This document shows positions 4,470-8,894 of a DNA stretch of 64,000 nt, piece by piece. Where the stretch lies: NCBI RefSeq assembly GCF_003259155.1, contig NZ_QGMQ01000009.1, positions 62,001-126,000 of the forward strand, given 5' to 3'. The translations under genes were made by a program, and so were the position numbers. Within the stretch, counting starts at the first letter, position 1. Every line of letters begins with the position of its first letter. Source of the stretch: Marinimicrobium alkaliphilum (GTDB taxonomy: Bacteria > Pseudomonadota > Gammaproteobacteria > Pseudomonadales > Cellvibrionaceae). The notes under the pieces are model-generated. The model made no database searches. It was not told where the DNA came from and worked only from the letters and a program-made list of their open reading frames with translations.

Positions 4470-7148
4470 TCACAACGACCGAAGGAACTCCAGAACATCC
4501 TGTTGCTGCGACTCTGACAACGCCTCATAGGCATTTTTAGCGGACTCGCCTTCTCCGCCGTGCCACAGAATCGCTTCTTCAATAGTGCGCGCACGGCCAT
4601 CGTGCAAGTAACCGTGCTCCGGCGTGCATTCGCGTTGGCCTGGCGGAGCCTGGGTCATGCCCCCGGTTACGCAGGCGGAATGCCCCAGACCCCACAGCGG
4701 TGCTGTGCGCCACTCGGAACCCGAGGCCTCGCCTTCACCCAGGGTATCCGCCATATCCGGGCCCATATCGTGAAGGAGCATATCGGTGTAGGGATAAATA
4801 GTCTGGTCGCGCAGCTCCGCCAGTGGGTGATAGGGGCTGGTCTGGAAGCTCGGCGTATGACAACTCGCACAGCCAATCTCGGAGAAAGCTGTCTCACCCC
4901 GCATCACGGCAGGATCATCGTAATTCTGCTGTGGCGGCACGCCGAGCAACGCAATGTACTTGACCAGATTCTCCACGTGGATATCGTCCAACTCGGCGCC
5001 GCTCGGGCCACAGTCAGTCTGCGCACTGCCACAATCCGGCTCGGGCATCACCGAGGTCATCACGCCCATGTCGGTGTTCAGGGCACCGACAACCTGGTGC
5101 AGGATGCTCACTTTGCCCGCCTTCCAGCCAAAGCGGCCCAAGCGGGTTTCGCCGGTTTCCGGATCAACCACCCGGTTGGCACGGCCGGAAATACCATCGC
5201 CGCTCTCGTCATAGGGATCTTCCAACGCCAATATCGCTTCCTCAGGGATAGCCTCCAGTAACCCCATACCCACGAGCTGCGGCGCAATACGGGCCGAGAA
5301 GCGCTCAGGCGTCACACCGGTAAACTCATAAACGGGCCGGCGCAGACCGTTTTGCTCAAACCAGGAGGCGATAAACACTTGGCCTTCACTCTCGGCCCCC
5401 TGATTGGCCTCGGCCTGCAGCACCCGCCCCAAATACGGGTGAGGATTACCTTCTTCGTCGCCGACCTGAAAAACCCATTTCTCGAGATGTTCACCCAAAG
5501 CCTCAGGTACGGCACGACCATTGCGTACATGGCAATCCGAGCAGGCTTCATTGATATAGCGAGGACCGGATAAACCCGCGAGTTCTTCAAACACCGGATT
5601 TTCCGCTGGCAATTCGTCGTGAGTACCATCGACGAATGAGGTATGCAGCACTCGCCGGCCTTCGACAAACGGCTGGGCATTGTCGTAACCAAGATTGGTG
5701 GCCATCTGCATAAACCGGTTCTGGGGTTCACCGGACGTATTCGCATGCAGCGTTGTATCGCCACCAAGCCAGGCGCGCTCGGGAATTTTAACCGAATCTT
5801 TTATCCCCCCTGCGGGTGTTGTGCCGCCAACATTCCAGGGCACGATACCTTCGCCGACAATATAGAGGTAGGTGGTACCGTAATAAGGTGCCCGACCATT
5901 GGGTACACCCGGAGCCAGGAACTGACTGATTTCAAACTCGAGCCGATCACCGAGCTGGATAGCACGGCCCTGACGGCAGTTGTGACTGCGCTCCTTGTAG
6001 TAATTCAGATCGTCAATCACTTCCATCGTGCCGTTATCACAAAACTCCGCAACGGTATTTCTGCCCACATAAAACCAACGATTTTCCGCTTCCAGGTCAT
6101 TCAAGCGCCACTGAGTACGCACATTCATACGAATACTGTCGCCGCCTTTGGCAACCCGGTCGATAATTTCAATCGCCGCCGTGCGGTGCTCCCAATAGAA
6201 GCTCAGGAAATGGTCGTATTGCTGAAATTGATCTTCCTTGGCATGACGGTCACGGGCGCGATCCGAAAAACGGGTAATCAGCGCATCATCAGTTTCATAG
6301 GTGATGACCGGCTCCAGTGGCGTTCCTGCGTGAAAAAGTGGCATGACACCGCCAACTTCTGTGGGCTGATAATCCGGATCGTGCGGCGGGGTATATCCAC
6401 CCTCGGAGTAATCGGTATTTGGAGGACTGCTGCTGGAGCTCGAGCTATCGTCGGGATCGCTGCTTGAGCTGGAGCTGGAGTTCGCGTCTCCTCCAGTGGA
6501 GTACTCGTCCGACTCGGCGCCTTCAGCGTACACTAGAGATACCCAAGTGGCATCGGTTGGGCCCGGGTAAAACAGTTGACCGGCACCCGGTTCAAAGCTG
6601 AAAAAACGCGCTTCGATCCGGTCACCGTCATCGTAGCTGCTTTCGCGCACCACGTGATAGGTAAAAGTGCCGTCACCGTTGTCAACCTCGGCACCACTCT
6701 GACTCTGGATATCGTTGACCACGAAATCCTGGGCACCGTTGCGGCGGGCAAAGACATGGACCGCATCTTTACGCATCGGCACGGTAATACTGAAACGGAC
6801 ACTGCCTCCGGCAAGTGCACTGATCCGCACCTGATCCAGATAATTAGCCTCTTCCGCGGCTGGCGCACTGGAGCTGGAGGACTGTGTGCCGTCAGAATGA
6901 TTATTGTCAGACGACTCGCTGCTGTTGTTGTCCGCAACGCTGCTGGAACTGTTACCCGACTCGTCATTATCACCCTCGTCGGGAGGCGCGCTGCTGCTGT
7001 GGTCACTGCTCATTGAAGACTGCTGTGAACCATTACCATCATCCTGATTGGGGGGCGGCTGTTCGCCACTGGAGCCGCCGCAAGCACTCAGGATGACAGT
7101 GACCGCGAGGGCAAACAATACCCGGCGGCTGATTGAGAAGAAAATCAT
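4470..7148 (-). CDS. Di-heme oxidoreductase (DHOR/COG3488-like) lipoprotein with Ser-rich linkers and extra N-terminal domain
   Basis: An 892-residue predicted lipoprotein: the signal MIFFSISRRVLFALAVTVILSAC has its lipobox cysteine at residue 23. A Ser/Asp/Asn-rich linker (24-100) precedes a ~105-residue domain (103-210) that also occurs twice in the neighbouring lipoprotein. A second poly-Ser linker (222-245) leads to a C-terminal part (about 265-892) with two c-type heme sites, CSDCH (536-540) and CASCH (760-764), plus GISGRANRV and GRFGWKAGK. These fit the di-heme 'thiol oxidoreductase' family (DHOR). The substrate is unknown. The region 270-450 is an expansion I do not recognise. It probably acts at the outer membrane or cell surface. 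It may be cotranscribed with the gene at 7239-8894, 90 bases upstream. Confidence 0.8.
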   Translation of the reverse strand: MIFFSISRRVLFALAVTVILSACGGSSGEQPPPNQDDGNGSQQSSMSSDHSSSAPPDEGDNDESGNSSSSVADNNSSESSDNNHSDGTQSSSSSAPAAEEANYLDQVRISALAGGSVRFSITVPMRKDAVHVFARRNGAQDFVVNDIQSQSGAEVDNGDGTFTYHVVRESSYDDGDRIEARFFSFEPGAGQLFYPGPTDATWVSLVYAEGAESDEYSTGGDANSSSSSSSDPDDSSSSSSSPPNTDYSEGGYTPPHDPDYQPTEVGGVMPLFHAGTPLEPVITYETDDALITRFSDRARDRHAKEDQFQQYDHFLSFYWEHRTAAIEIIDRVAKGGDSIRMNVRTQWRLNDLEAENRWFYVGRNTVAEFCDNGTMEVIDDLNYYKERSHNCRQGRAIQLGDRLEFEISQFLAPGVPNGRAPYYGTTYLYIVGEGIVPWNVGGTTPAGGIKDSVKIPERAWLGGDTTLHANTSGEPQNRFMQMATNLGYDNAQPFVEGRRVLHTSFVDGTHDELPAENPVFEELAGLSGPRYINEACSDCHVRNGRAVPEALGEHLEKWVFQVGDEEGNPHPYLGRVLQAEANQGAESEGQVFIASWFEQNGLRRPVYEFTGVTPERFSARIAPQLVGMGLLEAIPEEAILALEDPYDESGDGISGRANRVVDPETGETRLGRFGWKAGKVSILHQVVGALNTDMGVMTSVMPEPDCGSAQTDCGPSGAELDDIHVENLVKYIALLGVPPQQNYDDPAVMRGETAFSEIGCASCHTPSFQTSPYHPLAELRDQTIYPYTDMLLHDMGPDMADTLGEGEASGSEWRTAPLWGLGHSACVTGGMTQAPPGQRECTPEHGYLHDGRARTIEEAILWHGGEGESAKNAYEALSESQQQDVLEFLRSL

Positions 7149-7181
7149 AATAATTACCTCGAACGCCTCACTGACCGCGCG

Positions 7182-7212
7182 CCGCAGAATGCATGGTTAA
7201 TGGCATCCTGCG
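7182..7212. repeat. Hairpin between the two lipoprotein genes
   Basis: CGCAG-A-ATGC and GCAT-C-CTGCG form an imperfect stem around ATGGTTAAT. There is no T-run, so it may be an mRNA-stabilising hairpin between the two cistrons rather than a terminator. Confidence 0.35.
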
Positions 7213-7238
7213 ACTCGTGAGGTGATTGTGGTTAACGG

Positions 7239-8894
7239 TCAGTCAGTGAAGGTTGTTTCTGCCCAATCGCCATCGGTCGGGCCCGGGTAGAATGACTGCC
7301 CCGAAGCGGGGGTGAAGGTATAGAAACGCGCCCTGATCACGTCGCCATCTTCGTAAGGCGTATCCTCTCGCAGTGCCACGTAGGTCCAGGAGCCATCACC
7401 GTTGTCGATCTCATTGCTGGGGGTATGTTGGATGTGGTTAACCACAAAATCCTGGCCACCGTTGCGCTGGGCGAACAGATGCACGTCTTCCTTGCGCTCG
7501 TCCAGGCGGATACTGAAGCGCACATCGCCATTGTCCAACTGCGCAATAACGACCTCACCAATGCCACCGGCAATCTCGTCGTGACCGTTGTCCCCCGAGC
7601 CGTTGTCGTCATCACCGGTTTCACCGCCACCATTGTCGCCATCCTCGCTGTCATCAACGCCTTCAACCACAAGGCCCGCAGCGTAGGTCAAAGACAACCA
7701 GTCATCGTCAGTCGGTCCTGGGTAAGGGGCTGCTCCGCTGTCGGAAGCACCATAGAAACGTACCTCGACCAGGTCATCGTCGGCATAACCGTCCTCGCGG
7801 ATCACTTCATAGGAGTAGGTCCCATCGCCATTGTCAGTCACGGCACCGTCGATGCCCTCGATATGGTTAACGACAAAGTCCTGAACACCGTTGTGACGAG
7901 CAAATAGATGCAGTACATGCTGCTCCTCCGGTAGACGGATAGTGAAGCGCGCACCACCGCCAGTCAGTGCCTCAAAGCGAATTTGCTCAAGCTCACTCGC
8001 GGGCGGGCTGGGCTCATCATCTTCCTGGAGCGGCTGTACCGCTTCCAGCGCGCAGTCTTCAGCGGCGCAAACGTACTGGATGTTGTTCAGGTGCACCAGT
8101 GCTGTACCACCCGCGGCCTCCAATACAAAAGCGTTGATGATTCGCGCAAGATCAGCCGAGCCCGGCTCCAGCGTGTTGTCGATAAAGTCAGCAACAGGGA
8201 CACTCATGGAGACCCATTCACCCACCTCGGGGGTTTCCAGGGTGTACTCACTGACGCTGGGCCAGCCGCTATCAAGTTTGACCGTCAGACGGGTCTCGGC
8301 GTCAATGGCATCCACCTGGATATCAAACTGAACCTCGCCGTGATCCCGCATGGCTGAGGTCATCGTCAGACCATGACTGAACGGCGTGTCTTCCACACCG
8401 AGGAAAACATTACTGGCGTTGGGATCGTTAAACTGGATTTCCCAGACTGTCTGGCCATCGGCGCCAATGCCTTCGGCATTGGACTCAACAGTGCCGTATT
8501 GGCCGGGCGTCAGCACACTGGAGACTTGCTCACCATCGACCGTCAGTGCCAGCGTCGCCAGCCCGTCAGCGTAGAATGACCAGGCTTCAGAATCGGGGGC
8601 TGCCGGTTCGGACGAGTCGTTGCTGGACTCGGAACTGCTTTGGTGCTCCTCTGAGCTTTCGCTCGATTCGCTGGATTCACTGGATTCGTCATTGCTCGAC
8701 TCAGAACTGCTTGAGGAGGAGTCTTCACTGGACTCTGAGCTAGCACTACTCTCAGAGGAGGACTGATCGCTGGAAACGGAGCTGCTGCCACCACTGGCGT
8801 CTTCATCAGAACTGCTGGAGCTGCCACACGCAACCAATCCGGACGAGATTAATAGGGCCAGCATAAGTTTGTTGACTTTGATTATTTTTCGCAT
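7239..8894 (-). CDS. Ser-rich lipoprotein with ExoP-like galactose-binding domain and two copies of an unnamed domain
   Basis: A 551-residue predicted lipoprotein (lipobox LVAC, cysteine at residue 23) with a very long Ser/Glu linker (25-100). Residues ~103-276 resemble the ExoP galactose-binding-like domain found with GH3 exo-glucanases (WSFYADGLATL...YGTVES...WEIQFND), suggesting carbohydrate binding. Two further domains, ~302-410 and ~446-550, share LFAxxNGxQDFVVNHI, DNGDG and YPGPTDxDW with each other and with residues 103-210 of the di-heme protein. A Gly/Asp/Asn linker (411-444) separates them. No catalytic domain is evident, so a surface glycan-binding role is inferred. The ATG at 8894 has GAGGT about 9 bases upstream; an in-frame GTG at 8915 is less likely. 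Confidence 0.75.
   Translation of the reverse strand: MRKIIKVNKLMLALLISSGLVACGSSSSSDEDASGGSSSVSSDQSSSESSASSESSEDSSSSSSESSNDESSESSESSESSEEHQSSSESSNDSSEPAAPDSEAWSFYADGLATLALTVDGEQVSSVLTPGQYGTVESNAEGIGADGQTVWEIQFNDPNASNVFLGVEDTPFSHGLTMTSAMRDHGEVQFDIQVDAIDAETRLTVKLDSGWPSVSEYTLETPEVGEWVSMSVPVADFIDNTLEPGSADLARIINAFVLEAAGGTALVHLNNIQYVCAAEDCALEAVQPLQEDDEPSPPASELEQIRFEALTGGGARFTIRLPEEQHVLHLFARHNGVQDFVVNHIEGIDGAVTDNGDGTYSYEVIREDGYADDDLVEVRFYGASDSGAAPYPGPTDDDWLSLTYAAGLVVEGVDDSEDGDNGGGETGDDDNGSGDNGHDEIAGGIGEVVIAQLDNGDVRFSIRLDERKEDVHLFAQRNGGQDFVVNHIQHTPSNEIDNGDGSWTYVALREDTPYEDGDVIRARFYTFTPASGQSFYPGPTDGDWAETTFTD

Follow-up and report, generated by a model that had tools for sequence, protein, structure and literature searches.

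The window analyzed here, a stretch of 64,000 nucleotides from Marinimicrobium alkaliphilum (contig NZ_QGMQ01000009.1, positions 62,001 to 126,000), carries two adjacent lipoprotein genes on the minus strand, B (7239–8894) followed by A (4470–7148). They are separated by 90 bases and probably form one operon. A scan for terminators and promoters at this operon remained at chance level and gave no promoter evidence. Judging from their translations, the neighboring genes look like housekeeping genes and the operon lies outside any polysaccharide locus, which counts against a role in glucan use.

Based on the open reading frame, its translation and Pfam (PF06537), protein A is a lipoprotein of 892 amino acids. 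A signal peptide with the lipobox LSAC (residues 20–23, with Cys23; 7080–7148), recognized by eye, is followed by a Ser-rich linker, a single copy of a repeated domain (residues 101–211; 6516–6848; delimited by BLASTP and alignment, AlphaFold mean pLDDT of 89), a second Ser-rich linker and a long-form di-heme oxidoreductase (DHOR). The DHOR core spans residues 478–892 (4473–5717), as judged from the best PF06537 stretch (617–892) and a tree, and an alignment of long forms places its two heme-binding motifs, CSDCH and CASCH, at residues 536–540 (5529–5543) and 760–764 (4857–4871), respectively. N-terminal to this core, phmmer and alignments outline a region of about 200 amino acids (residues 265–470; 5739–6356) that is conserved in long DHOR proteins resembling that of the window and may be a separate domain; Pfam lists no family of its own for it (a second DHOR stretch is reported without its position). 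Protein B, a lipoprotein of 551 amino acids according to its translation, Pfam and NCBIfam, likewise starts with a signal peptide identified by eye (lipobox LVAC, residues 20–23, with Cys23; 8826–8894) and a Ser-rich linker. These are followed by an ExoP_C-like domain (residues 101–285; 8040–8594) and two copies of the repeat, copy 1 at residues 299–410 (7665–8000; BLASTP and alignment) and copy 2 at residues 440–551 (7242–7577; alignment, AlphaFold mean pLDDT of 81). No catalytic domain was found in protein B with Pfam or NCBIfam.

The ExoP-like domain originally predicted is weak in this copy of protein B. The domain remains under the cut-off of PF18559 (ExoP_C; 16.5 bits against 26.1), but it is clearly related to residues 370–556 of the GH16 protein encoded by the same genome (32% identity, E 8e-25). 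In the counterpart of protein B in L021, ExoP_C passes with 27.2 bits (residues 318–427). The host genome has one GH16 protein, which carries ExoP_C at residues 609–724 and adjoins a GH3-ExoP_C gene. This pair of GH16 and GH3 genes, both with ExoP_C-type modules (L081:3108–7822), is likely a beta-glucan locus. As the domain of protein B is akin to these GH16 and GH3 modules, protein B shares parts with the glucan-type enzymes of its own genome. The same genome also encodes one LPMO10 with GbpA_2 and CBM2. CBM56 was not detected in it, a negative that carries no weight because the control genomes gave no signal either.

A rare repeat and its carriers

The repeat, a domain of about 105 residues, is present in three copies that are 45–53% identical. 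The copy of protein A aligns to copy 2 of protein B with 53% identity (E 7e-35) and to copy 1 with 51% identity (E 1e-33; BLASTP). The pairwise scores of the three copies (293, 299 and 240) lie 38–51 standard deviations over the mean of 500 composition-preserving shuffles each, of which the best score 52, 61 and 51. A domain common to the two Ser-rich lipoproteins, as originally proposed, is therefore confirmed far above shuffled sequences, and the motifs cited for it (LFAxxNGxQDFVVNxI, DNGDGT and YPGPTDxxW) are present. In a tree built from 17 copies, one of 14 inner branches is starred, and this lack of resolution is why no history is drawn from it.

Neither Pfam nor NCBIfam provides a significant curated family for the repeat, with scattered, weak matches over the 13 copies scanned. 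In Pfam, no family matches more than three copies and the best E-value (0.001) belongs to a phage adaptor on one copy; NCBIfam gives four families with one copy each (best E 0.004). PF22184 (CBM56) is absent from the matches of all 13 copies at E 10, and no copy reaches its curated cut-off. A single copy searched against PDB sequences also remains at chance level (best E 0.17), the matches being mainly a filamin-type gelation factor and an antifreeze protein. On these scans the repeat qualifies as a candidate new family, for which a CAZy number (CBM or X-module) may already exist. In the titles and opening abstract lines of the papers listed on CBM56, CBM39 or GH81 with Cellvibrio, no module like it is named.

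One copy used as query against its own genome retrieves nothing beyond the three known copies. In a search of 145 relatives, a 3-row profile (E 0.01) detects the repeat in 9, so it does occur outside this locus. A 13-row profile (E 0.001) gives 10 of 144 family genomes, counting the genome of the window. With the latter profile, only two of 390 genomes in the order sample contain it (the own genome and a weak one), and in the class sample the own genome is the sole hit (1 of 369). Across the genomes searched, the repeat is thus uncommon, with few occurrences beyond a single family; two carriers come from Cellvibrio records. The 18 rows of the family search were merged into 16 carrier proteins: the named records L018 and L019, of which the latter is cut by a contig end, agree in length and position with the rows G463 and G467, so that they were treated as identical loci and enter the count a single time. 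Two rows obtained with the 3-row profile, G064 (E 0.0044) and G098 (E 0.0098, in a frame of 11102 amino acids), were dropped from this count, and neither is among the matches with the larger profile, for which G064 is listed in the order sample with no match. A Gordonia match (L020) was rejected as it is restricted to the surroundings of DNGDGT. G171 (L083:1777–4320; E 2.4e-4), a ThuA domain protein with FN3 repeats, has two to three distantly repeat-like stretches, two of them with a PGPGD..W-like ending; it is a possible distant relative outside the 16 carriers counted.

According to Pfam, most carriers (n = 10) are GH81 proteins (L018, L019, L022, L023, L024, L025, L077, L078, L079 and L080). 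Two are DHOR proteins, two are ExoP_C-like proteins (those of the window and L021), one (L026) combines GH16, two CBM10, the repeat and DHOR in a single chain of 1553 amino acids, and one (L027) is a frame of 271 amino acids without any Pfam family. L026 and L027 are distant carriers, the latter without a glucan-related domain. In two GH81 carriers (L023 and L080), CBM56 passes its cut-off ahead of the repeat, and in L077 it stays under the cut-off. The C-terminal 97–98 amino acids of the GH81 proteins of L018 and L022–L025 form a domain-like stretch with no Pfam family over cut-off; that of L018 has a weak CBM_56 match (E 0.035). L021 contains a pair like that of the window in the same gene order, with one repeat in the DHOR protein and two in the ExoP_C-like protein. 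Its DHOR part (L021:4074–6005, G059) is spread over two frames, as ORF 4707–6794 stops early and a frame of 280 amino acids provides the rest, which reflects either an error in sequencing or a disrupted gene.

Beta-1,3-glucan occurs in algae and in the walls of fungi. GH16 comprises many activities; the GH16 domains observed here appear laminarinase-like, helped by a second Pfam match to the beta-glucan family SKN1_KRE6. The substrate of GH81 is described as beta-1,3-glucan (PMC9609564), although the accessible text of another paper gives beta-1,6-glucan instead and reports that glu81A of Cellvibrio japonicus is strongly induced on fungal necromass (PMC11497827). The presence of a GH81 or GH16 catalytic domain in 11 of the 16 carriers, as assigned by Pfam, argues for beta-1,3-glucan as the ligand of the repeat over another glycan such as 1,3-xylan, mixed-linkage glucan, cellulose or alpha-glucan. 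The two CBM10 of L026 speak for such another glycan, as does the one DHOR-glycosidase fusion found in print, which involves a 1,3-xylanase (PMC9638140). N-terminal Ig-like domains of an alpha-amylase are also near in fold (Z 9.1 for the model of the A copy in VIA-align). Taken together, we deem a different glycan unlikely. The carriers also bear on a second proposal, in which the repeat docks a redox partner of the di-heme enzyme. It does stand beside a DHOR domain in the window, L021 and L026, but the ten GH81 carriers contain no redox domain in Pfam and the repeat is found in none of 20 other long DHOR proteins sampled. Because most carriers lack a heme domain in Pfam, redox docking is disfavored, and we give it the least credence of all readings. 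Of the originally suggested choice between glycan binding and redox docking, the former is thus retained and narrowed to beta-1,3-glucan.

The DHOR side

The assignment of a di-heme oxidoreductase next to the repeat, also part of the original prediction, stands firmly: protein A scores 239 bits against PF06537, for which the cut-off is 22, and both CXXCH motifs are conserved in all 15 aligned long-form DHOR proteins. PF06537 occurs in 73 of the 117 relatives searched. A set of 20 proteins with long frames was picked by hand from the PF06537 list, leaving out its other members. In all 20, CBM-type modules (F5/8 type C, CBM6/35 or CBM56) are located ahead of DHOR, and GH16 is found in five; a presumed hydrolase of the polymer class is fused in the same chain in several DHOR cases. 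PF22184 passes its cut-off in half of the sample (10 of 20) and is absent from the other half. Where present, CBM56 is the last Pfam-placed module before DHOR in six proteins (L059, L061, L063, L066, L067 and L074), and other modules lie in between in four (L065, L070, L071 and L073). The repeat profile matches none of the 20 proteins at E 0.01; its best row among them (E 0.025) is the CBM56 of L061.

A tree calculated from 30 DHOR cores places the protein of the window in a clade of 15 rows (support 100/99) that comprises ten CBM56 carriers, two repeat carriers (the window and L026) and three proteins with neither. None of the seven long-form DHOR proteins outside this clade has CBM56. The resulting contrast (10 of 13 window-like against 0 of 7 other DHOR proteins; Fisher P 0.003) is descriptive, as the sample is hand-picked and its members are related. 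L026 belongs to a subclade of eight rows (100/99) that excludes the DHOR of the window, which implies either several separate acquisitions of the repeat by DHOR proteins or an exchange. Judging from domain order, the repeat appears to occupy the place where many related DHOR proteins have CBM56, a known beta-1,3-glucan binder. The frequency of CBM56 in this clade (10 of 15) also speaks against a different glycan, though F5/8 type C and CBM6/35 are present there too.

The DHOR region as a single sequence has no match in PDB, and a 7-row profile gives a cytochrome c match over 51 residues (E 0.002) next to chance rows. In the DHOR proteins of L069, L070 and L071, PF03640 (Lipoprotein_15) repeats directly precede the DHOR region. 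The literature searched gave no activity measurement for a DHOR like that of protein A.

Predicted fold and the proposed glucan module

Copy 2 of protein B and the copy of protein A were modeled with AlphaFold2 from the same five-row alignment (the copies of the window and the Cellvibrio loci) with a different target. The models reach a pLDDT of 80.7 and a pTM of 0.74 for copy 2 of B, and a pLDDT of 89.2 and a pTM of 0.83 for the A copy. For both, the best solved match in VIA-align is BhCBM56 (PDB 5t7a), with Z 9.9 (rmsd 2.8, 89 aligned) for copy 2 of B and Z 10.4 (rmsd 2.3, 87 aligned) for the A copy. Crystal structures of insect beta-GRP/GNBP3, whose N-terminal domain we take to be labeled CBM39, are the next matches for both models (Z 9.2–9.9). 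Ig-like domains without known sugar binding come close behind, at Z 8.9 for copy 2 of B and at 9.4, for an MHC-like domain, for the A copy. The scores of further CBM56 and beta-GRP entries fall within the range of these plain Ig domains (6a6c with 8.4 and 9.0, 7quz with 8.2, and the NMR entry 2kha with 8.3 and 8.2). In Foldseek, 5t7a ranks second for copy 2 of B (E 1.1e-3) after an MHC-like chain (E 7e-4). For the A copy it ranks first (E 2.3e-4); the rest of the best 50 are mainly MHC class II chains and include no beta-GRP. As plain Ig domains score nearly as high, the fold alone is no proof of glucan binding. The models indicate that the repeat shares the Ig-like fold class of CBM56 rather than a close kinship, with plain Ig domains within about one Z unit. 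While the family scans revealed no significant known family, the predicted fold does point to CBM56 and beta-GRP.

Sequence comparison hints in the same direction. Among PDB chains, the repeat profile scores best on the CBM56 of BglH, at an E of only 0.47, and beta-GRP is absent from the two sequences matched at E 10. In hhalign, repeat and CBM56 rows align weakly over 80 columns (score 25.4, P 7e-4, probability 26%). One of 200 column shuffles is as good, the reversed control scores 13.4 and five control domains score 10.4–13.9. This link is suggestive of a module that works like CBM56, rather than one that is a CBM56.

An Ig-like fold would also suit a structural spacer of the Big, FN3 or filamin type without any ligand, and chance-level matches to filamin, invasin and cadherin models can be read in the same way. 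Nonetheless, F133, N137, Q140, R181, P195, G196 and W202 (numbering of protein A) are invariant in 17 of 17 aligned copies, and in related DHOR proteins a binding module stands at that place, which makes a mere spacer highly improbable to us.

The explanation that we favor, and consider probable as a whole, is that the repeat is a CBM56/CBM39-like beta-1,3-glucan module and that the operon encodes a glucan-binding lipoprotein together with a glucan-tethered di-heme enzyme. The repeat would be an Ig-like module of CBM56/CBM39 type that has diverged past the reach of the CBM56 model. Beta-1,3-glucan is inferred as its ligand because of the GH81 and GH16 carriers, the CBM56 seen at the equivalent place in related DHOR proteins and the predicted fold. 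Both proteins are presumed to be exposed on the outside of the cell. Protein B, with no recognized catalytic domain, would hold beta-1,3-glucan at the cell surface by its two repeats and ExoP_C-like domain, and the single repeat of protein A would anchor its two-heme DHOR enzyme to that polymer. The heme enzyme would then serve polymer breakdown, as an electron donor, a peroxidase or an oxidant. A more far-reaching version, which we regard as doubtful, is that repeat and CBM56 keep this DHOR clade attached to beta-1,3-glycans in insoluble, triple-helical form, and that the heme enzyme directly oxidizes the polymer there as a copper-free counterpart of an LPMO.

If the favored explanation is right, the repeat represents a candidate for a new CBM family that has a specific ligand, and the operon points to a group of heme enzymes in the Cellvibrio family that are joined physically to modules for beta-1,3-glucan. 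From its domain composition, protein A seems to be a di-heme enzyme tethered to glucan, a type of which little is known and an unusual partnership.

Comparison with known systems

CBM56 (PF22184; BhCBM56, PDB 5t7a) resembles the repeat in the predicted Ig-like beta-sandwich and in its company, as both accompany GH81 and precede DHOR on the N-terminal side. It is reported to make GH81 more active on curdlan and pachyman in insoluble form (PMC9609564). The repeat differs in being longer, in its DNGDGT and YPGP-W signatures, which the CBM56 rows aligned here lack, and in that the PF22184 model matches none of its 13 copies. The likeness to beta-GRP/GNBP3 (CBM39) lies in the fold (Z 9.2–9.9 for crystal entries, 8.2–8.3 for the NMR entry). 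According to the accessible text of PMC7915573, this protein binds beta-1,3-glucan, often as a triple helix, with a preference for the triple-helical form in some insects, and its domain and CBM56 are alike in fold and laminarin-binding surface. It differs in being an animal immunity protein, and the PDB profile search found no sequence match to the repeat.

Among the papers listed in the literature search, Xyn65 of Gilvimarinus xylanilyticus is the only relevant fusion of DHOR to carbohydrate-active parts; no report of a glucan-linked DHOR group was found in the mostly open-access papers searched. Xyn65 is described as GH26-CBM31-CBM6-Big-DHOR (PMC9638140) and thus joins a secreted DHOR, CBMs and a glycosidase for a beta-1,3 polymer in one chain. 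It is set apart from protein A, as described in the accessible text, by acting on 1,3-xylan rather than glucan and by the absence of any report of such a repeat. Its authors raise the same question of the DHOR role, for a 1,3-xylanase (PMC9638140). Cbp2D and Cbp2E of Cellvibrio japonicus similarly tie a CBM to redox domains, with c-type cytochrome domains in Cbp2D. As far as the accessible texts describe them, they are needed for growth on insoluble cellulose, and an electron-donor role has been proposed (PMC12542752, PMC8981238). They contain CBM2 and X158/X183/X132 domains rather than DHOR and are linked to cellulose rather than beta-1,3-glucan. Both Cbp2D/E and Xyn65 raise the question of which role extracellular cytochromes play in polysaccharide breakdown. 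The fusion of DHOR with a 1,3-xylanase is already in print, and what is added here is the beta-1,3-glucan group, in which a glucanase-type domain, a binding module and a di-heme enzyme in one chain make this cytochrome role directly testable.
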